Below are positions 1,411 through 44,934 of a DNA stretch of 64,000 nucleotides, piece after piece. The notes below the pieces were generated by a model. That model worked only from the letters and a program-made list of their open reading frames with translations. It was not told where the DNA came from and made no database searches. The position numbers and the translations under genes are program-made. The DNA comes from Magnetococcales bacterium WMHbinv6 (lineage in GTDB: Bacteria > Pseudomonadota > Magnetococcia > Magnetococcales > Magnetaquicoccaceae), in NCBI GenBank assembly GCA_002753135.1, contig PDZV01000008.1:1-64000 (forward strand), in the 5' to 3' direction. Within the stretch, counting starts at the first letter, position 1; the number at the start of each line of letters is the position of its first letter.

Positions 1411-1492
1411 GTAGACTGGCACCCATCCCTCTGCTAGACTGACTTATCTTTTCCCCATTGGGTCAAATTACAGATGATGGCTTGGAAATCAT

Positions 1493-3040
1493 ATGCTTGA
1501 TGATATTGAGAAAACGCTTTGGGCTGCTGCGGACAAGCTGCGCGCCAACATGGATGCGGCAGAATACAAACATCTGGTGTTGGGACTGATTTTCGTTAAA
1601 TACATCTCCGACACCTTCAATGCCCGTCGCATGGAGTTGACCAAAAGATTTTCCGACCAAAAAGATGAGTACCATTTGCCGGAGGCAACGCCAGAGGATG
1701 TTCAGGCCGAATTGGAGGAGAGGGATTACTACACCGCAGCCAACGTCTTCTGGGTTCCTGAAGCGGCGCGTTGGGAGGCACTTCGCTCATCGGCCAAGCA
1801 GCCCCAGATTGGCAAGCTGATTGATGAGGCTCTGACCCTCATCGAAGCCGAGAATCCCAGGCTCAAGGGGATTTTGGACAAACGCTACGCCCGTGCGCAA
1901 CTGCCGGATGGCAAGCTGGGCGAGCTGATTGACCTGATTTCCACCATCGGATTCAACACCGATGCCGGACAGGTTCGTGATGTGTTGGGTCAGGTCTACG
2001 AATATTTTCTTGGTCAGTTTGCCAGTGCGGAGGGCAAAAAGGGTGGTCAGTTCTACACCCCGGCCTCCATCGTCAAGAGCCTGGTGGCGGTGCTGGCTCC
2101 CCATCATGGCAAGGTCTACGACCCTTGCTGTGGCTCTGGCGGGATGTTCGTGCAGAGCGAAAAGTTTATCGAGGCGCATGGTGGCAAACGTGGTGATACC
2201 TCGATTTATGGTCAGGAGTCCAATCCGACCACATGGCGTTTGGCGGCCATGAATCTGGCCATTCGCGGCATCGATTTCAATCTGGGCCGGGAACCGGCAG
2301 ACACCTTCACCAAAAATCAACATCCCGACCTGAGAGCCGATTTCATCTTGGCCAATCCTCCTTTCAATGTCAGCGATTGGTGGCACGGTTCTTTGACCGG
2401 AGACCCGCGCTGGCTCTACGGAGAGCCACCGGCTGGCAATGCCAACTACGCCTGGTTGCAGCACATGCTCTATCACTTGAAGCCCACCGGACGGGCAGGC
2501 ATCGTGTTGGCCAACGGTTCCATGAGTTCTTCCCAGAACAGCGAAGGCGAGATTCGCCGCCGGATGGTGGAAGCGGACGTGGTGGAGGTGATGGTGGCTT
2601 TGCCGGGTCAACTGTTCTTCAATACCCAAATTCCGGCCTGTTTGTGGTTTTTGGCCAAACGGAAGAGTCATCGCCAGGGGGAGGTGCTGTTCATCGATGC
2701 CCGCAAGCTGGGAACCATGATTAGTCGCTCCCAGGCGGAATTGACCAATCAGGTCATTACTCGAATTGGGGATACGGTGGCGGCATGGCGTGCCGGGTTG
2801 GAGACCTACCAGAATATCCCCGGCTTTTGCCACAGTGTGAAATTGGCAGAGATTGCCGAACATGGCCACGTTCTCACCCCCGGTCGCTATGTGGGAGCCG
2901 AAGAGGTGGCAGATGATGATGAGGTGTTCAACGAGAAAATGAAAAAATTGACTGCAAAACTCGGAGAACAGATGGCCAAGGGTGCCGAACTGGACCAGTT
3001 GATTCGGCAGAAGTTGGGTTCGTTGGGGTATGAGTTCTGA
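1493..3040 (+). CDS. hsdM: Type I restriction-modification DNA methyltransferase subunit HsdM
   Basis: A 515-residue N6-adenine methyltransferase subunit of a type I restriction enzyme, working as M2S or R2M2S complexes. The helical HsdM N domain covers about residues 1-150. The SAM-binding motif I is DPCCGSGG (210-217) and the catalytic motif IV is NPPF (288-291). The length is normal. It opens the operon; its TGA overlaps the ATG of the first HEPT gene by one base, so all genes up to hsdR are probably co-transcribed. The long antisense frame lying over it is a codon-bias shadow. Confidence 0.95.
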
Positions 3041-3474
3041 TGGCGGCATTGATTGAAATGGACCTCTCCCGGCTGGAAAGCGCAGTTGAGCGGCTTGATG
3101 AGGGACTGCGCCGCTATCAACTGGATGTCTCCGATATCCAGATACGGGATGGATTGATTCAACGCTTTGAATTCACCTATGAAATCAGTCACAAGACACT
3201 GAAAAGGTTCCTGGTGATGGCATCCCCATCACCAGATATCTTCGATGATATGCCTTTCTCGGATTTGATTCGCACGGGAAATGAATATGGGTTATTGTCT
3301 GGGAATTGGGAGGACTGGAAGAAGTACCGGGAGAGAAGAGGAAAGAGCAACTATACCTATGATGAGCAGATTGCCATGGACGTGGTGCAGTACATTCCCG
3401 CCTTTTTGGAAGAGGTTCGTTACCTGTTGAATAAACTCAAATCAAGAGTGGGAGACCAGCCATGTCAAGATTGA
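3040..3474 (+). CDS. HEPT-domain protein 1 (HI0074-type nucleotidyltransferase substrate-binding family), altered active site
   Basis: A 144-residue all-helical protein of the HI0074/HepT-like family, the usual partner of minimal nucleotidyltransferases (MNT). Typical segments are RDGLIQRFEFTYEISHKTLKRFL (36-58) and YRERRGKSNYTYDEQ (96-110). HepT toxins carry R-x4-H-x-Y, where Arg and His are the RNase residues and Tyr is AMPylated by MntA. Here the motif reads R100-x4-Y105-x-Y107, so the catalytic His is replaced by Tyr. It is therefore probably not an active RNase and may be a partner or immunity paralogue of the next gene. It overlaps that gene by 13 bases. An alternative start is Met7 at 3058. 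Confidence 0.82.
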   Translation: MAALIEMDLSRLESAVERLDEGLRRYQLDVSDIQIRDGLIQRFEFTYEISHKTLKRFLVMASPSPDIFDDMPFSDLIRTGNEYGLLSGNWEDWKKYRERRGKSNYTYDEQIAMDVVQYIPAFLEEVRYLLNKLKSRVGDQPCQD

Positions 3475-35925: not shown

Positions 35926-36038
35926 ATCGTTCTGCTGTCAGAGAATCATTTACCTGCCAATCGATCTGACCCTGAAAAATGCAAGTGCATGTGGCGTACA
36001 TCATATCTCCCGCCCACACCCAGCCAAACCGGTTCACC

Positions 36039-37157
36039 ATGAAACCTACCATTCTGGTCGTCGATGACACTCCGGAAAATATTGATGTCCTGAAAGGGGC
36101 GCTGACGCCGGAGTATACGGTGCGCCCGGCGACCAGCGGGGCGGTGGCGCTGAAAATTGCCTGTATCATGCCCCTGCCCGATCTGATTCTGCTCGATATC
36201 ATGATGCCGGGTATGGATGGGTACGAAGTGTGCCGCCAACTGAAGGCCAATCCTGTCACCCGCGATATTCCCATTATTTTCGTCACCGCCCGCAACAGCG
36301 AAAGCGATGAACTGCACGGCCTGCACCTGGGAGCCGTCGACTATATCACCAAACCTTTCCGTATCGCCGTGGTCCGTTCCCGCATCAGCACCCACCTGGC
36401 CTTGCGCCTGGCAACCCGGCAACTGGCCGAACAAAACCGCCTGCTGGTCGACGAACGCGAATTGATCGAAAGCATTCTGCTGAAAATGCGGCAGGGCGAT
36501 CTGTTCCATCCGCAACATATCCGCTCTCTGGTCTCGCCGGTGGAACGAACCGCCGGTGATCTGCTGCTCTCGGTCTTTACCCCGGATCAACGGCAGTTGA
36601 TCCTGCTCGGCGACTTTACCGGACACGGGCTGCCCGCTGCCATCGGCGGACCTCTGGTCGATTTTATCCTGCACGATATGGCACAACGCAATCAACCGGC
36701 TCTGGCGATTATCCAGTCCATCAACCGGCAACTCTGCGACCGCCTGCCGACCGGGCTGTTTCTGGCCGCCTGTTTACTGGAAATCCAACCCAACCGCCGC
36801 CAGGCCCAACTCTGGAACTGTGGACTGCCCAGCCTTTTTTGGCTGCGTCAGGGCAGCGTGTTGGGGGAGTTTCCCTCCAACCAACCGCCGCTCGGCATCC
36901 TGGCCAGCCTGGATCTGGCCGCAGGAGTCATGCCGCTCACACTGCAACCAGGCGACCATCTCTACGCCTTCTCCGACGGGGTGATCGAAGTCTCCTCCCC
37001 AGAGGGAACCCTGTTCTCTTACGATCGACTGCTCCCTTTTCTGCAAAAGGCCAGTCTCGGGCGCATCCCACTGGAAATTTTACTGGAACAGTTGACCGCT
37101 TTCAGCACAAGCGATACCTTTGCAGACGATATTACCCTGGCCGAAATTGAATTGTGA
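36039..37157 (+). CDS. Response regulator with PP2C (SpoIIE) phosphatase output
   Basis: A 372-residue protein. A CheY-like receiver (residues 1-125) has DD near the start (ILVVDDTPENIDVL), phosphoacceptor in LILLDIMMPGMDG, and Lys in ITKPF. A short coiled coil leads to an RsbU/SpoIIE-type PP2C domain (LLLSVFTPDQRQLILLGDFTGHGLPAA; LYAFSDGVIEVSSPEG). Such proteins dephosphorylate anti-sigma-factor antagonists. Start chosen at the receiver Met (36039). It overlaps the next gene by four bases. Confidence 0.9.
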   Translation: MKPTILVVDDTPENIDVLKGALTPEYTVRPATSGAVALKIACIMPLPDLILLDIMMPGMDGYEVCRQLKANPVTRDIPIIFVTARNSESDELHGLHLGAVDYITKPFRIAVVRSRISTHLALRLATRQLAEQNRLLVDERELIESILLKMRQGDLFHPQHIRSLVSPVERTAGDLLLSVFTPDQRQLILLGDFTGHGLPAAIGGPLVDFILHDMAQRNQPALAIIQSINRQLCDRLPTGLFLAACLLEIQPNRRQAQLWNCGLPSLFWLRQGSVLGEFPSNQPPLGILASLDLAAGVMPLTLQPGDHLYAFSDGVIEVSSPEGTLFSYDRLLPFLQKASLGRIPLEILLEQLTAFSTSDTFADDITLAEIEL

Positions 37158-38266
37158 TGCAGACGCTCGTTGCCAAAACCAACAAAAAAGGGACCATCCT
37201 GCTGGTTGAAGATCAGCCGGAACATATCGATGTGGTCAAAGCGGCCCTCGATGGCCATTTTACCGTCAAGATTGCCACCCACGGCGAACTGGGCCTGCGC
37301 CTGGCCAAACAGAGTCTGCCAGACCTGATTCTGCTCGACATCATGATGCCTGGCATGGATGGCTTTGAGGTCTGTCGGCAACTGAAGGCCAATCCGGCCA
37401 CGCAAGAAATTCCGGTCGTCTTTCTCACCGCCAAACAAAACTATGATGACGAAACCTACGGCTTAAGCCTGGGTGCCATGGATTTTATCCGCAAACCGAG
37501 CAACCCAGCCATCATTTTGGCCCGCATCACCAATCTGGTGGAGTTGCACCGGGTCAAAAAAGAGCTGTTGCAGCGCAATCAGGAGCTGTTGCACACCCTG
37601 CATATTCGTGAAGATATGGAAAATTTGGCGCGTCACGACCTCAAAGGTCCGCTGGTCGGCATTCTCGGCTTGCCAGAACTGTTGCTTGCCGATGGCAACC
37701 TCAATGAAGAACAACGGACCATGATTCAGGTGATCGAGACCAACGGCTATACCATGTTGGAGATGATCAACCGGTCGCTGGATCTGTTCAAGATGGAAAG
37801 CGGCCAGTATCCCCTGCAAGCGGAAAAATTTGACCTGAATGGGGTGTTGAAACGGGTGATTCTCGATCTGGAGCGGCACACCATCCCGCTGCACATTCAT
37901 CTGGTGCCGCCCAAAGCCAAAACACCCTTTTTTGTCTTGGGTGAACGTCTGCTCTGTTACTCGTTGTTTTACAACCTGCTGCTCAACGCGGTTCAGGCTG
38001 CCGAGGCCAAAGGCAGTGTGACGGTACAGCCAATCAGCGACACAACGGTCAACCGGATCATCATCCGCAATCCCGGCGAAGTACCGCCCGCCATTCGCCC
38101 CCGTTTTTTTGAAAAATATGTCACGGCTGGCAAGCAGGGAGGCACCGGATTAGGCACCTATTCGGCCTGGCTGGCTGCCAAAACCCAAGGGGGCAACATT
38201 GTGTTGGACTGCAGCCAGGAGGGCGAAACCATCATCACCGTCACCTTGCCCAAAGTGGAACAATAA
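37154..38266 (+). CDS. Hybrid receiver-histidine kinase
   Basis: A 370-residue protein: receiver at residues 13-130 (ILLVEDQPEHIDVV, LILLDIMMPGMDGFEV, IRKPS), coiled coil, then a histidine kinase with H-box MENLARHDLKGPLVG and an ATPase domain (NLLLNAVQAAEAKG, GGTGLGTYSA as G box). There is no membrane segment, so it is a soluble kinase. The receiver is highly similar to that of the preceding gene (same LLDIMMPGMDG and CRQLKANP segments), which points to a duplicated, jointly controlled pair. Confidence 0.88.
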   Translation: MMQTLVAKTNKKGTILLVEDQPEHIDVVKAALDGHFTVKIATHGELGLRLAKQSLPDLILLDIMMPGMDGFEVCRQLKANPATQEIPVVFLTAKQNYDDETYGLSLGAMDFIRKPSNPAIILARITNLVELHRVKKELLQRNQELLHTLHIREDMENLARHDLKGPLVGILGLPELLLADGNLNEEQRTMIQVIETNGYTMLEMINRSLDLFKMESGQYPLQAEKFDLNGVLKRVILDLERHTIPLHIHLVPPKAKTPFFVLGERLLCYSLFYNLLLNAVQAAEAKGSVTVQPISDTTVNRIIIRNPGEVPPAIRPRFFEKYVTAGKQGGTGLGTYSAWLAAKTQGGNIVLDCSQEGETIITVTLPKVEQ

Positions 38267-38273
38267 ACCCCGG

Positions 38274-40259
38274 TCAGCGGCTTTTTTCCCGTCCCATCCG
38301 CCCGTCGCCATGCAACAAATCGGAAGGTGCCGTTCCCCAACGCAACGGTAAACGGAACAGCAACAGCAGCGTCACCACCAGCACGGCACCCAACACTTCG
38401 CCCAACGTGACCATGATCGGCTGCCAGGGCAGCGGCAATATTTCAAAATCATAACCAGGAGGCAGCAAATCCTGGTAATGGGCGATAATTCCCTTGAAAC
38501 CGTCTTCCAACAGCAGGCGCAGCAAGGGAATAAACCCAAACACCGCCACCGCCCCTCCGACCGAAGTGGCGAGAATCATCTGCCAGATCAATTTGGCATA
38601 AATCCCGGACCAGGTAAAACCACGGCTCAACAGAATGCCGTAATGATGCCGCCGGTGACCGATCAGCGCCCCAACCTGCGCCAACAACAACGCCGACAAA
38701 AACAGGCCGAAGCTCAAAGCATAGGCCGGAACCATGGTTGTCAACAAGTCGCTCAACAGGTTGAAGCGGTTCAGGGCATCCTGATACATGGTCTGAATGC
38801 TCAAGGCGCGCACGTCGTCCGACGTACGCAACGCCAACAGTCCCTGAATCCCCCGACTCAAGCGGGTCGGATCCGGCACATAGACATGCACCGCCGCCAG
38901 GGAGTTGCCGTCACTGGTCACATCCCAGGGCACAAACAACGGTGTGATCACCGCATTGGGTTTGCTCTCTTCCGGACACAACATGCCGCGCATGGCGTTG
39001 CTGCGCGGCAAACGCTGGCAGGGCAACCAGAGACGGTTGTTGCTGTCATGGTTCAAGGTATCCCACAGTTCCGACTGCCCGCCCTCGTGCCGCAACCCTT
39101 GCGCCAACGGTTTGGTCTCATTTTTCAACGGTCGAATATCCGCCGCCGAAGGTTTGGCACACACCTCTTCCCGTACCCGGGGCAGGTCGGTCAGCCCTGT
39201 CGCCGCCACGGCGGTGTGAATACAACGTTCGTAGGCGGTCAACATCTCTTTGGGAAAGGTGGACGAACTCAACCAGCGATAATGCTCGGCATCTCCCTTG
39301 CCCAAATTGAGCGGATCATAGCGCAATTCGGGAAAATGGTAAGCCGCCATCAAGGCATGATAGGTGGTCATCGGAAACAAAAAGGCCACTTTTTCCATGC
39401 TGGGAATATGATGCACCCAACGCACGTTGAAGGGCAGAATCTCTTCCCGATTGCCTACGGTCACCTTCAACCAGAGGGTGCTGAGGGCATTTTTCAAATC
39501 ACCCTGCGGCGGTTTGGCAGGCAAGCGGCGTAATTTTTTCTTCTGCAACAGCGGTTGAATCGCTTCCCGATAGGCGTTGTAGTCGAACTGTTTGGCAAAC
39601 AACGATTCACTCAACACCACCGTCAGCGGCAACCCTTGCCAACCCCGGCTCTTTTCTTCTGCGCTCAACCCGGCAGCGGTCGCCACCGTCTCACGCTCCT
39701 CCCCTTTGGCGGCCTCTTTCTCCTGACTCTCGCCAGTCGGGGATGCAACCGGGGCCGACGAGGCTTCACCCGGTGACATGGTCAAATTCCATAACGGATC
39801 GCTGCCGTAGACCGCCCAACCTACCCACGGCACCCCGGAGGTCCAGATTCCTTCCACCGGCAGACGAATGTGGGGCGCACTCTCGGCCACACGGCGATAC
39901 GGATGCACGGAAACAGCAAAATTTTCCCCTGGCACCCGTTTTTCAAACTCTTTCAGACGATCCAACAAGCTGCTTTGGATCCCTTCATGGTTTTCCCAAT
40001 GGGAAGTTACCCAAATCGGCACCCCATGCGGACGCAGGGTGCCCAGAATGGCATCGGTAAACCGTTCCACCAACCCGGCCCGTGTTCCCACCAGCAACAA
40101 AGCCATGCTGATGACCAGCGCCAGCAACAGGGTCAACCAAAAAAAATCCCGGCCGCCGCCGACACAGCCAAAGCGTCCACAAACAAAGGAACGCCAATAG
40201 GCTCGTCCACCCAAGGTCGCCCAAACCGGAATAAAACGCCGCGTTCGTCTTGTTTCCAT
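38274..40259 (-). CDS. FtsX/MacB-like ABC permease with large periplasmic domain (TagS-like)
   Basis: A 661-residue membrane protein. One N-terminal membrane segment (FFWLTLLLALVISMALLLVG, about 39-58) is followed by a periplasmic region of more than 400 residues and three C-terminal helices (ALSFGLFLSALLLAQVGALIG; MILATSVGGAVAVFGFIPLLRLL; VLGAVLVVTLLLLFRLPL). This is the type VII ABC (LolCE/MacB/FtsX) plan, which performs mechanical work in the envelope rather than transport. It is the last gene of a four-gene unit and starts 23 bases after the ATPase gene. Similar permeases (TagS) operate in type VI secretion signalling. Confidence 0.82.
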   Translation of the reverse strand: METRRTRRFIPVWATLGGRAYWRSFVCGRFGCVGGGRDFFWLTLLLALVISMALLLVGTRAGLVERFTDAILGTLRPHGVPIWVTSHWENHEGIQSSLLDRLKEFEKRVPGENFAVSVHPYRRVAESAPHIRLPVEGIWTSGVPWVGWAVYGSDPLWNLTMSPGEASSAPVASPTGESQEKEAAKGEERETVATAAGLSAEEKSRGWQGLPLTVVLSESLFAKQFDYNAYREAIQPLLQKKKLRRLPAKPPQGDLKNALSTLWLKVTVGNREEILPFNVRWVHHIPSMEKVAFLFPMTTYHALMAAYHFPELRYDPLNLGKGDAEHYRWLSSSTFPKEMLTAYERCIHTAVAATGLTDLPRVREEVCAKPSAADIRPLKNETKPLAQGLRHEGGQSELWDTLNHDSNNRLWLPCQRLPRSNAMRGMLCPEESKPNAVITPLFVPWDVTSDGNSLAAVHVYVPDPTRLSRGIQGLLALRTSDDVRALSIQTMYQDALNRFNLLSDLLTTMVPAYALSFGLFLSALLLAQVGALIGHRRHHYGILLSRGFTWSGIYAKLIWQMILATSVGGAVAVFGFIPLLRLLLEDGFKGIIAHYQDLLPPGYDFEILPLPWQPIMVTLGEVLGAVLVVTLLLLFRLPLRWGTAPSDLLHGDGRMGREKSR

Positions 40260-40282
40260 CGTTGTTCTGCCTGTCGTGAAAA

Positions 40283-41086
40283 CTATCCAGAGGCCTCGGC
40301 TTCATTGGCCGCACTCTTTTTGCCCCCCTTCAAACGTAACAGGCAACGGTTGTTGGCCACCATAAGCCAATGGCTGACCCGCGGATCGACTGCATCAGAA
40401 CGGTGATGGGTCACCCAAATCACCATCCGATCGCCCTTGGCCAACCAACGATCCACCAAACCCATTACTTCCTGGCGGGTATCGGCATCCAGATTGCCTG
40501 TCGGTTCATCGGCAAACAAAACATGCGGATCATGAATCATCGCCTGCGCCAACGCCACCCGCTGAAATTGCCCGCCAGAGAGTTCATTGGGATAACGGTC
40601 CAAAAACTCTTCCGGCGAGGTATCCTCCACCCGCGCCCCCAAATCATCCCGCAGTTACACCCGATCCATGGCCGCATGCACCCGACGGTCCATCTCTGCT
40701 TTGCTGAAGCCGCCCAACAACTCCAGCGGATAGCGCAAATTTTCCCGCACGCGCAGATAAGGGGTCAAGGTGCTGTTCTGGTAAGCAAAACCAAAACATT
40801 GCCGCCGGATCTGGGTCAAATCCAGGGTCGATTCCTGCGGGTCCAACCCTTTCGGCCCCCAGACCGCCCGATGACCATCGGGAAAACTCCAACGTACCGA
40901 CCCTTCGCTGGGACGTTTTAAAAAAGTCATCAAATACAGCAACGTACTCTTACCACTGCCACTGCGACCCAGCACCGGCAAACGACCAGAAATCTGGTTG
41001 CTGTCCAGCTTCAAGCCCCCCACCTGCAAATTGAATGAGTTGCCCCAGGAGACTGAGGCCGTGCGCACCTGTACTCCCCAACTCAT
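40283..41086 (-). pseudogene. ABC ATPase of the FtsX-like permease, interrupted by one in-frame stop
   Basis: The frame from 41086 to 40283 encodes a complete 266-residue ATPase apart from a TAA at 40657-40655 (codon 144). Before the stop are Walker A GRSGSGKSTLL and the Q loop YQNSTLTPYLRVREN. After it, in the same frame, come the signature LSGGQFQRVALAQ, Walker B VLFADEPTGNLD, and the switch region WVTHHRSDAV. A single change such as CAA to TAA would explain it; no bases are lost. It may be a true null allele, a sequencing error, or a read-through site. The start (ATGA) overlaps the vWA gene stop. Confidence 0.87.
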
Positions 41087-43725
41087 GGCAAAAATTCCTG
41101 CGGAATCCAATAGCCACGCCGTCCGCCCAAGGTATGGGCATAGTGGTAGGATTTATCCGGTCCCAGCGGTTCGCGCTGTACCGCACCCTCCACCTTCAAC
41201 AAGGCCCGACCATTGGGGGTGGCATCGGGACAACTGCGGGCCTGATGGGTGGTGGCCTGAAAAACCGGTTTAAAGAAATCCCGCTCGATCACTTCCAAAA
41301 TCTCCTTGGATTTGATCGCCCACAAAGACAAACGGCGCAGTTCACAGACCGGTGCGGCCAGAATGGGTTGTCCTTTGTTGTCCAGCATCGGTTTTTTCTC
41401 TTTGTCCAATACCACCAGGCGGCCATCCATGTTGCGTTCCACCTGCTCTGCCGACAAGGCGTTGACATTGTAGCTCAATAACGGGGAGTGACGCCGTACC
41501 GGCAGACCACCACGTCGCTGGGCATACTCTGCCGGTGTTTCACCCGCCACATCGATGGGCGGACGACGAATCTCCTGCTGCAGACCCAAAACCAAGGCAC
41601 TGATCAAAGCCCGGCGCAACTGGGTCTCCGGCAAATCGAAATAACCTTCAAAACCACGCAAAATGCGGATCCAGGAGGATAATTCACCGCTGTTGATCCA
41701 CAACTCTTCGACAATTTTGTCATCGGCCTCAATGTAGGCAATCTGTGTGGTATCATACACGCGGCGTTCGCACTGTTCGCCCAACTCGCCACACGCCCCC
41801 TGCTTGAGAATATGCCAGTAGACGCCGGGAATATCCACCCGCTCACGCCGCAAACGCTCAATCACCGCTGTCAGGGCGGCCCCGCCGCGCACATCGAGAA
41901 TAATTTCGTTGATCAGTTCGGAACTGGCCAGTTTTTCCACCGTCTGCAGCACGCGGGAGACCAGATTGTTGTCACCCAACTGGAAAAAATGTTCACCGGT
42001 CTTGCTGGTGGCTGGCAGGCTGTTGCTCAGAAGCGTGTTGGCCTGGGCACCAAACAGTTCATAGGCATTTTTGTAGAGATTGGGATTTTTCGCCTGCTGC
42101 GCCAACGAAGGGGTACGAATAAAAAAGGGAATGACATTGTTGCTTTTACCACCCGCAACATCCCCACCACGCAACAGATGCGCCAGGGTATCTGTCCTGA
42201 CCGGATGACGATATTTGGCACCTCGAACCGGGTGGGTATCGCGATAACCACTGTCGCCGATCATGAACAACAATTTCACATGATCCGGGCAGGCGGTCAT
42301 ATCTTTTTTCAGGGCCTGTTCCAAACCACCGAAACTGTTCTCTTCGTAGTCATCGGCATCATCACTGGTCACCTGCACCTTGGCGATGGCCTCCTGAAAT
42401 TTTTCCAGCGACTGTTTTTGTTGCTCCGCGTTCAGGGTACACCCTTCCGGGAGGGGAAATCCTTCTCCGATACCGTCACCCAAACCGTTCGGCAATCGAC
42501 TGTCGGCATAGGTATCGCGGTAGATCCGGAAACCGAAACGGAATTGCGTCTCGCGGAACCCCTGCGTACTTTTGAGGGAGTGAATGATCTCCTGAATCAC
42601 CCCCGCCTGTTTGTCGGTACCACGCACCGCATCGATCACCGGCTCCATGCTGGCGGTGGCATCCAGCAAAAAGAAAATATCCACATGCTTTTTGGTGCTG
42701 AGTGACTGCACCTGCGGCATGATCTCCTTGGCCAGCGAAGGGGCAATGGCCACGGTGTCCGAATCGATGCGTCGGGCAACCAGGCCAGGCCGGGCCAGAG
42801 CAACCTTGTAAAAGCGCCGTCCACTGCTTGAGGAGCCTGCCGCCAATTCGTTGGGAGAGACATTTTCCCCCTTGGTATTCAACAAATCCAACACCGGAAT
42901 ACGCAGCGGCGACTGAAACCAGGAGCTGCCTCCCTCTACGGGTTGACAACTTTTTTGATCCTGACTGATGGCGTCCGCCAGCTTTTCGTAGGTACAAACC
43001 GTCCCATTACCCTTGCCATCCGGCGCTTTCAAATCTTCCCGGGGCCGCAAACTGAAGGCATTGTTCCAGATAAAACCATCCTTGCGCGCCGCCCACCCCA
43101 ACAACACATCATCCTCTTCCAGACGATAGCGATCTCCCAACAAGACGGCATGATCGGTCTGGTCAAAGACAAAATACATGTGAAAACGGGAGGCCCCTTC
43201 CCGGCAGTTCTCTTTGCCGCCGGTACACTCTTTCAACTCCGGATCCTGAAACACACGGACCATCGGCTCGCGGTTTTCGGTATTGCGGGCAACCGTATCG
43301 GTTTTGATGAAAAATTTCATCTCCAACCCGGAATCACTCTTGATCGGCGTGTTGCGGCATAACAGATCACTTTTACGCACCCAACCAACAGCCGGCTCTT
43401 TTTTCTTGAAGCGGTGCGTGCGCACTTTGACCCGCTCCTTGCTCTCTTCGCTAATCTCCATCTGCTGGTTGAAATCCAGCGAGCCTTCCCGCTGATTGCC
43501 GCTTGCTTCGGCATACAAAGGGGACTCTTGCCGCATGGACCGGGCGACACCGACCCATTTCAAACGGCCATTTTCATAAAAACGGCTAAAATCCAGACGG
43601 GCACAACTGCCGGATGACTCCTCATCGGCCCAGCCTGGCACCCCCTGCAGCAGTGCCAGCAAACAGCCGATCATTGCGATTCCCATGGCCTGATGATTAT
43701 CGATCCGTTTTCTGTTCACGGTCAT
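41083..43725 (-). CDS. Periplasmic vWA-domain protein
   Basis: An 880-residue exported protein. A signal peptide (AMGIAMIGCLLALLQGVPGWA) precedes an SH3-like segment (ESPLYAEASG...VGWVRKSDLLC). A von Willebrand factor A domain begins near residue 348 with the MIDAS-like DATASM in VDIFFLLDATASMEPV (D-x-T-x-S rather than the classical D-x-S-x-S); an inserted region with HPVRGAKYRHPVRTDT follows. The ATG at 43725 has a good GGGGGATGGG upstream. In PpkA of type VI secretion a periplasmic vWA-like part senses TagR; here there is no kinase domain. It overlaps the ATPase gene by four bases. Confidence 0.83.
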   Translation of the reverse strand: MTVNRKRIDNHQAMGIAMIGCLLALLQGVPGWADEESSGSCARLDFSRFYENGRLKWVGVARSMRQESPLYAEASGNQREGSLDFNQQMEISEESKERVKVRTHRFKKKEPAVGWVRKSDLLCRNTPIKSDSGLEMKFFIKTDTVARNTENREPMVRVFQDPELKECTGGKENCREGASRFHMYFVFDQTDHAVLLGDRYRLEEDDVLLGWAARKDGFIWNNAFSLRPREDLKAPDGKGNGTVCTYEKLADAISQDQKSCQPVEGGSSWFQSPLRIPVLDLLNTKGENVSPNELAAGSSSSGRRFYKVALARPGLVARRIDSDTVAIAPSLAKEIMPQVQSLSTKKHVDIFFLLDATASMEPVIDAVRGTDKQAGVIQEIIHSLKSTQGFRETQFRFGFRIYRDTYADSRLPNGLGDGIGEGFPLPEGCTLNAEQQKQSLEKFQEAIAKVQVTSDDADDYEENSFGGLEQALKKDMTACPDHVKLLFMIGDSGYRDTHPVRGAKYRHPVRTDTLAHLLRGGDVAGGKSNNVIPFFIRTPSLAQQAKNPNLYKNAYELFGAQANTLLSNSLPATSKTGEHFFQLGDNNLVSRVLQTVEKLASSELINEIILDVRGGAALTAVIERLRRERVDIPGVYWHILKQGACGELGEQCERRVYDTTQIAYIEADDKIVEELWINSGELSSWIRILRGFEGYFDLPETQLRRALISALVLGLQQEIRRPPIDVAGETPAEYAQRRGGLPVRRHSPLLSYNVNALSAEQVERNMDGRLVVLDKEKKPMLDNKGQPILAAPVCELRRLSLWAIKSKEILEVIERDFFKPVFQATTHQARSCPDATPNGRALLKVEGAVQREPLGPDKSYHYAHTLGGRRGYWIPQEFLP

Positions 43726-43875
43726 CCCATCCCCCTGACAGCCTGTTGATATAACCTGATCCACGGGCTCCCACCTGTGGATAGCGTCGCCATCCCCCCC
43801 AAAACCGCGTTGTGCGCCGATTGGTGAGCAAAAGCAAGCCCAACCGGTTCAGGGTATGGTCTTTTGCAACTTTAT

Positions 43876-44934
43876 TCAATGGTTGCTCTTCGCCTCGTCC
43901 GTATCGGCGGCAGCCGTGCTGGCGCGGGCCGGATGAATCACCATCCGGAAACCGGCCACCGAAAACAAATTCGGAATACAGCTTGGCTGTCCATCCCGCA
44001 TGCCCGCTCCCCAATCCTCTTCACCCACCAGATAATAACCGACCGGACAAGGAGATCGGGTCCACTCGTTTCCACCTTGCAACAACGATTTGAGAGGGGT
44101 GGCATCAAAGCCATCGCTGGGTTTGGGCAATGGCACCCCTGACTGAAACAGATGGATAATTGCCGCCGCCCACTCCTCGCGAGAAGGAATTTGAAAGTGG
44201 CAATGGGTTTGTTGCGCCAACCAGCGGCTGAAATCCATGGCCGCTTCCAGAGAGACACCGCGCACCGCTGGAGAAACGCTCTCTTTTTTGTTCCAGAACA
44301 TACCGATATGGGCCAGTTTTTCCTCTTTTTCCTCTCCGGATGGCATCTGTTCCACCGCATCCACATACTGTTTGAACAAGGCAATGGAGACCGCTTGTTC
44401 CTGAATCAAAACCGGCTCCGGCAAAACAATTTCGCTTAAACGATGGGATGGCAAAAAGGGATGCAAAGGCGAGTTGGCCGCAGGCAACTCATAACGTCCT
44501 GCCGGAATGGTCAACATGTTGACCGGGCCCACCGTGCGGGAAGCATTTGCTGTCCCGGCCATGACACAGGTTGCGCCTTCGTTGACCACGACTGCCGACG
44601 GCGGATCATTGCTGCGGTGTGCAAAAAATGAGCTGCCCGCAAACCAGTGTCCCATCGACAACTCAGGCATGGACCAGGTTGCCCAACTCGGCCAGGACCA
44701 CTCTGGCACAGACCACGACAATGATCGTCCCGCCAACAGCAGCACTCCAAATAAAGCCAGCAGAATCAATGCATTGGCTGCCCGGCGTCGGGAAGGTGTC
44801 GCGGGCGGTTCACTGCCGCTGTCTGGTCGTTTAATACGCACGGCCCCTGGTTGTTGGGCACGGGTGGCAAAACGACGCGGTTGCCCTGCCGCACGAAGCG
44901 GTTCACGCGGCGAAGATAGGTTACGACCACTCAA
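43876..44934 (-). CDS. Membrane-anchored FGE/SUMF1-domain protein (TagR-like)
   Basis: A 352-residue protein with TTG start. A Pro/Arg-rich cytoplasmic head (1-50) and one membrane helix (ANALILLALFGVLLLAG) place the rest in the periplasm. Residues 150-340 resemble the formylglycine-generating-enzyme fold: VSIALFKQYVDAVEQ, VRGVSLEAAMDFSRWLAQQTHCHFQIPSREEW, GGNEWTRSPCPVGYYL, and GFRMV at the end. The copper-site Cys pair of true FGE is not evident, so a structural or sensory role is more likely, as for TagR in type VI secretion. First gene of the module. Confidence 0.8.
   Translation of the reverse strand: MSGRNLSSPREPLRAAGQPRRFATRAQQPGAVRIKRPDSGSEPPATPSRRRAANALILLALFGVLLLAGRSLSWSVPEWSWPSWATWSMPELSMGHWFAGSSFFAHRSNDPPSAVVVNEGATCVMAGTANASRTVGPVNMLTIPAGRYELPAANSPLHPFLPSHRLSEIVLPEPVLIQEQAVSIALFKQYVDAVEQMPSGEEKEEKLAHIGMFWNKKESVSPAVRGVSLEAAMDFSRWLAQQTHCHFQIPSREEWAAAIIHLFQSGVPLPKPSDGFDATPLKSLLQGGNEWTRSPCPVGYYLVGEEDWGAGMRDGQPSCIPNLFSVAGFRMVIHPARASTAAADTDEAKSNH

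Follow-up and report, generated by a model that had tools for sequence, protein, structure and literature searches.

A four-gene FGE-vWA-ABC module of Magnetococcales, a predicted sister family of the PpkA-TagRST trigger of type VI secretion

The TagQRST-PpkA pathway is a sensor of outer-membrane damage (PMC11881912), and tag/ppkA genes next to srfABC have been described from host-associated Deltaproteobacteria, among which a single one had type VI machinery (PMC3608642). A locus recalling these systems is carried by Magnetococcales bacterium WMHbinv6 within the stretch of 64,000 nucleotides analysed here (contig PDZV01000008.1; hereafter the window), which belongs to a genome assembly of 3.84 Mb in 80 contigs. 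At 38274-44934, genes for an FGE-like protein, a vWA protein, an ATP-binding cassette (ABC) ATPase and an ABC permease follow one another in this order on the minus strand; no paper naming this four-gene module was found in the open-access literature. A reading made from the letters alone (the sequence-only reading) had described a membrane-anchored FGE-like protein, an exported vWA protein, an ATPase and an FtsX-like permease, encoded in one direction with ATGA overlaps, and had likened them to TagR, PpkA, TagT and TagS. The four codirectional genes were found as described, and the ATGA overlap was present at a single junction, vWA/ATPase (41083-41086), the FGE-vWA and ATPase-permease junctions having gaps of about 150 bp and 23 bp, respectively. 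Comparison of the proteins indicates that the module is a sister family to the PpkA-TagRST trigger and not a member of it. Its features are as follows.

43876-44934, minus strand: FGE-like (C-type-lectin-fold) single-pass membrane protein, assigned by an FGE profile, no Pfam match as a single sequence
41083-43725, minus strand: exported vWA protein of 880 amino acids, assigned by signal peptide, AlphaFold2 model and comparison of the vWA region with PpkA
40283-41086, minus strand: ABC ATPase of 267 codons, interrupted by an in-frame TAA; PF00005, E 5e-24 once the stop was masked
40655-40657, minus strand: the in-frame TAA, codon 144 of the ATPase, Leu in relatives
38274-40259, minus strand: predicted type VII (LolC/MacB/FtsX-like) ABC permease; FtsX below threshold in Pfam, assigned by AlphaFold2 and Foldseek

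Relation of the four proteins to PpkA and TagRST

In the vWA protein, a signal peptide and a beta-rich N-terminal region precede the vWA domain, and the C-terminal part is mostly helical. Among 28 relatives, the residues of the metal ion-dependent adhesion site (D355, T357, S359 and D491) were near-invariant and eight cysteines were invariant (28/28). An AlphaFold2 model (mean predicted local distance difference test, pLDDT, 79.6) matched integrin I and beta-I domains in the PDB, and no solved structure was matched when the vWA sequence, the vWA profile and the permease profile were used as queries. As the sequence-only reading had it, the protein stands without a kinase: it has a signal peptide, the Pfam scan gave no kinase match on it, the operon contains no kinase, and no kinase or type VI gene adjoins the module in the window. 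Profile-profile comparison of the vWA family (43 rows) with PpkA-type vWA proteins gave P 98.7% and E 2.7e-16 over 294 columns for the full profile, and P 99.2% and E 3.5e-19 for the vWA region alone. Unrelated controls, run as single sequences, had E values of 0.11 (a vWA protein from L169) and 0.63 (a TadG-like protein), and PpkA-type proteins run as single sequences scored 9e-9 to 3e-11. Judged by these profiles, the kinship of the vWA domain with that of PpkA is specific, and the proposed resemblance thus held (E 3.5e-19 against 0.1-0.6 for the controls).

Both the FGE and the vWA assignments rest on profiles and folds, the single sequences falling below Pfam thresholds; the FGE-fold domain was recognised by profile only, with matches to ToxD, PvdO, FGE and PorK/GldK in the PDB and none to the Pfam FGE family. 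The FGE-like protein of the window begins with a basic cytosolic tail (about 54 residues, including a PGAVR motif), followed by a transmembrane segment at about residues 55-73 and a periplasmic FGE-like domain, whose C-terminal part shows its own conserved Cys pattern. Such basic tails (net charge about +6 to +17, with an A-V-R motif in many) are found on the FGE proteins of Magnetococcales. The profile of the FGE-like protein gave E 5.9e-6 against TagR and E 1.3e-18 against generic FGE domains of its own genome, so that the equation of this protein with TagR was not supported. It was also noticed that three probable kinase-FGE fusions lie elsewhere in the window genome (C46:185255-187060, C24:161220-163139 and C69:36932-38920), as suggested by kinase and FGE domains in equal-length frames at each site; they are possible partners.

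The permease has one transmembrane segment, a large periplasmic domain and three further transmembrane segments (AlphaFold2, pLDDT 81). With this model, Foldseek ranked LolCDE first (E 5e-7) and also matched MacB (E 1e-4), BceB and FtsX, which indicates a predicted type VII (LolC/MacB/FtsX-type) ABC fold working with a separate ATPase (PF00005). The permease profile gave E 4e-6 against a TagS profile and 2e-4 to 0.03 against single TagS proteins, compared with 2e-5 against the LolC/MacB-like permease of its own genome that served as the single control (L240). The designation FtsX-like was retained; a specific kinship with TagS could not be demonstrated, single TagS proteins matching no better than the control. 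In the ATPase tree, the module ATPases formed one clade (100/99), TagT another (98/95) and the LolD/FtsE/MacB/YbbA-type a third (95/96), and the identification of the ATPase as TagT was not supported.

Since the type VI regions of the relatives' genomes contained no Tag module, a TagF search over 249 genomes of the phylum was used, from which ten regions were fetched, and a true TagF-PppA-PpkA-TagT-TagS-TagR-TagQ cluster was reached in genome G236 (L208). With the periplasmic part of PpkA as query, kinase-less PpkA-type vWA proteins were detected in four other genomes, and in the neighbourhoods of those matches and of G294, a weak match of the vWA gene search, TagT-TagS-TagR adjoined a PpkA-type vWA (L233, L234, L235 and L236). 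SrfB and SrfC were located upstream of the kinase-less vWA-TagT-TagS-TagR genes in L233 and L234; L236 is similar, as judged by gene size only. The most telling case is the Magnetococcales genome G038, which carries a module of the window type (L054) plus a separate kinase-less PpkA-type vWA-TagT-TagS-TagR set (L235:8520-15049, G038:C35); because both coexist in one genome, they are different systems. The sequence-only reading had seen no type VI genes, and the genome-wide check agreed: the sheath gene VipB/TssC was detected in 0/48 Magnetococcales genomes, the E. coli control being positive. Taken together, the ATPase clades, the FGE and permease scores, the lack of a sheath gene and the coexistence in G038 argue for a sister family. 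In the operon, as read gene by gene without a genome-wide search, there was no TagQ-like lipoprotein gene.

Conservation in Magnetococcales and relatives outside the order

The vWA gene was present in 43 of the 48 Magnetococcales genomes, and three of the five lacking it are at most 75% complete. The neighbourhood search with the vWA protein, which the sequence-only reading had proposed, revealed all four genes in identical order in 19/19 Magnetococcales loci fetched. Median identities to the window proteins were 75% for the ATPase, 61% for vWA and 57% for the permease, compared with only 40% for the FGE-like component, which thus varies around a conserved core. The module is probably inherited vertically in the order. 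Two relatives of the same genus have an AAA-type gene and a second gene between ATPase and permease; these inserts (L042:5829-7597 and L043:5421-7213) consist of an AAA-type ATPase, assigned by eye, and a small second gene.

Codon 144 of the ATPase, TAA in the window, encodes Leu in the relatives readable there (TTG in the two closest). Because the remaining ATPase is 94% identical to that of the nearest relative, the TAA would be either a recent nonsense mutation or an assembly error. An uninterrupted four-gene set occurs in genome G027.

Outside the order, relatives were recognised by the shared vWA, ATPase and permease families: 1) Alphaproteobacteria, Rhodobacteraceae included, have c3/c7-vWA-ATPase-permease operons, several of them followed by a CpaF/VirB11-type ATPase and with TadE/TadG-like (Tad-pilus) genes nearby, and in the same group a Sagittula plasmid carries FGE-c7-like-vWA-ATPase-permease, of which only FGE and ATPase are annotated as more than hypothetical proteins, and 2) giant sulfur bacteria and their allies have FGE-c3-vWA-ATPase-permease operons. 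In the plasmid searches, vWA matched only this Sagittula plasmid and, weakly, Gluconobacter, and the permease matched none. The names c3 and c7 denote an undescribed, apparently secreted, Cys-containing family encoded upstream of vWA in alpha and gamma relatives (L098-L103, L112, L136, L139 and L150); c3 and c7 are homologous to each other, had no Pfam match, and gave no homologue in Magnetococcales in a search run without a positive control. A type VI sheath gene was present in the genomes of 9 of 18 non-order relatives, but the flanks of the module that were inspected contained none. In bacterium Gpa_5, the module (L136:1851-17262) is preceded by an FGE protein whose N-terminus looks caspase-like by eye, and followed by TIR and nSTAND-WD40 genes, a setting resembling that of conflict systems.

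The FGE N-terminus differs among these relatives. In Candidatus Thiomargarita nelsonii (L112), the FGE protein (1489-3282) consists of an N-terminal Pkinase domain, a transmembrane segment and FGE, and its gene is overlapped by that of a PP2C phosphatase (497-1501), both on the same strand upstream of c3-vWA-ATPase-permease. In L140, L142 and L143, which include some Thiotrichaceae/Parabeggiatoa, the FGE N-terminus is Cys-rich and zinc-ribbon-like, as judged by eye. An AAA gene lies inside the Thiomargarita locus as well (L112:3836-5002), and another is found downstream of the L140 module.

In the window, the genes around the module are two-component and housekeeping genes, with no SrfB/SrfC beside it. 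Convergent with the module, at 35979-38266, are a response regulator with a SpoIIE/PP2C phosphatase domain and a response regulator/histidine kinase hybrid; as partners, these two were dropped, clear adjacency among the order loci being seen only in the close relative L041.

Possible function and alternative explanations

We give about even chances to a role as signal transducer, in which the vWA and FGE-like proteins read the state of the envelope and the output reaches the cytosol via the FGE subunit. By analogy with FtsEX, BceAB and TagTS, the ABC pair would be a mechanotransmitter and not a pump, the ATP cycle of the pair being linked to the vWA protein, which is rich in cysteines and has a metal site, by way of the large permease domain in the periplasm. 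The vWA protein, together with the periplasmic FGE-like domain, may bind an envelope ligand such as peptidoglycan, the outer membrane or a surface appendage. Output would pass through the N-terminus of the FGE subunit, which is a kinase-like domain in Thiomargarita, with PP2C adjacent, a zinc-ribbon-like Cys-rich head in some Thiotrichaceae/Parabeggiatoa, and a short basic tail in Magnetococcales, where it presumably docks a partner in trans. The best analogy appears to be the sensing of outer-membrane damage by TagQRST-PpkA, that for the opposite, inside-out direction being FtsEX-EnvC. It is plausible, as the sequence-only reading had suggested, that the module senses the envelope for another machine.

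Several points weigh against a transducer of this kind. The sensing role, the ligand and the direction in which a signal would travel are our inferences. The kinase-FGE fusion was found in one relative only (L112), with an AAA gene between the fusion and the module, and because its kinase motif reads HADINAQN, HAD in place of HRD, with IDYD, its activity is only putative. The ATPase of the window genome may be dead. In Magnetococcales, the module lies among varying housekeeping genes of mixed kinds, which name no client machine. Similarity of the vWA protein to PpkA was marginal in the N-terminal region (E 3.6e-4) and absent in the C-terminal half (E 0.2), so that homology over the full length is unsupported for the C-terminal part.

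An inside-out device like FtsEX-EnvC, with the ATPase and permease switching a periplasmic vWA protein that acts on peptidoglycan or, in Alphaproteobacteria, on a Tad-type pilus, and sending no signal to the cytosol, is the strongest competitor, though we regard it as unlikely. The type VII fold with its FtsX, LolC and MacB matches agrees with it, as do the CpaF/VirB11-type ATPase and TadE/TadG-like genes by several alphaproteobacterial operons, several of which have no visible FGE gene; however, the FGE gene was kept in 19/19 order loci checked, and the Thiomargarita kinase-FGE fusion with PP2C points to a cytosolic output. Less probable still is a true TagRST-PpkA module that has lost its kinase and type VI secretion. 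It would account for the relationship of vWA to PpkA and for the order vWA-ATPase-permease, the same as PpkA-TagT-TagS, and it has a precedent in Tag modules known to lack both the kinase and type VI secretion (PMC3608642; L233, L234 and L236), but the families separate in the ATPase tree, the FGE-like protein is nearer generic FGE than TagR, the permease is no nearer TagS than another FtsX-type permease, the operon as read lacks a TagQ-like lipoprotein gene, and one Magnetococcales genome has a distinct Tag-type module (L235) in addition to one of the window type (L054). Least probable is that the operon encodes an ordinary efflux or lipoprotein transporter, to which the vWA protein would be an accessory: LolCDE and MacB are the best structural matches of the permease, yet there is a single permease with a larger and distinct periplasmic domain, no membrane-fusion protein, tight co-conservation with vWA (and FGE or c3/c7), and an ATPase outside the LolD/MacB group.

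Beyond the envelope transducer itself, we tentatively propose, with less confidence than in that role, an undescribed envelope-signalling family that is a sister of the type VI trigger. Its vWA-ABC core would be constant, the FGE-borne output would be swapped between lineages, and the trigger of type VI secretion would represent a single specialised branch of the design. On this view, the part of the type VI "tit-for-tat" trigger that does the sensing would belong to a more general envelope device with other outputs. A near-universal gene set of Magnetococcales gains a testable role, and the Thiomargarita kinase-FGE fusion with PP2C predicts FGE as the subunit addressing the cytosol.

Comparison with known systems

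With PpkA-TagQRST, the window module shares a PpkA-type vWA, the order vWA-ATPase-permease (as in PpkA-TagT-TagS), an FGE-fold partner and exported sensing parts. It differs in that its vWA has no kinase, the order Magnetococcales has no type VI sheath gene, the ATPases fall in a separate clade, and the FGE protein, which is not TagR-like, is membrane-anchored with a cytosolic tail and encoded upstream, whereas TagR is encoded downstream. The Srf-linked kinase-less modules (L233, L234; PMC3608642) resemble it in having a stand-alone exported vWA, an ABC pair and FGE, with no kinase on vWA; however, their proteins are clear TagT, TagS and TagR homologues encoded beside SrfB/SrfC, and the window module has neither trait. 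With type VII ABC systems (FtsEX-EnvC, LolCDE, MacB and BceAB) it has in common the predicted topology and fold of the permease and the type of ATPase, whereas its partners are vWA and FGE-like proteins and its periplasmic domain is larger. The relatives outside the order (L098-L103, L112, L139, L140 and L252) belong to the same family by vWA, ATPase and permease, and differ from it by an extra secreted c3/c7 protein and, in some, by Tad-pilus neighbours or a kinase/PP2C pair.

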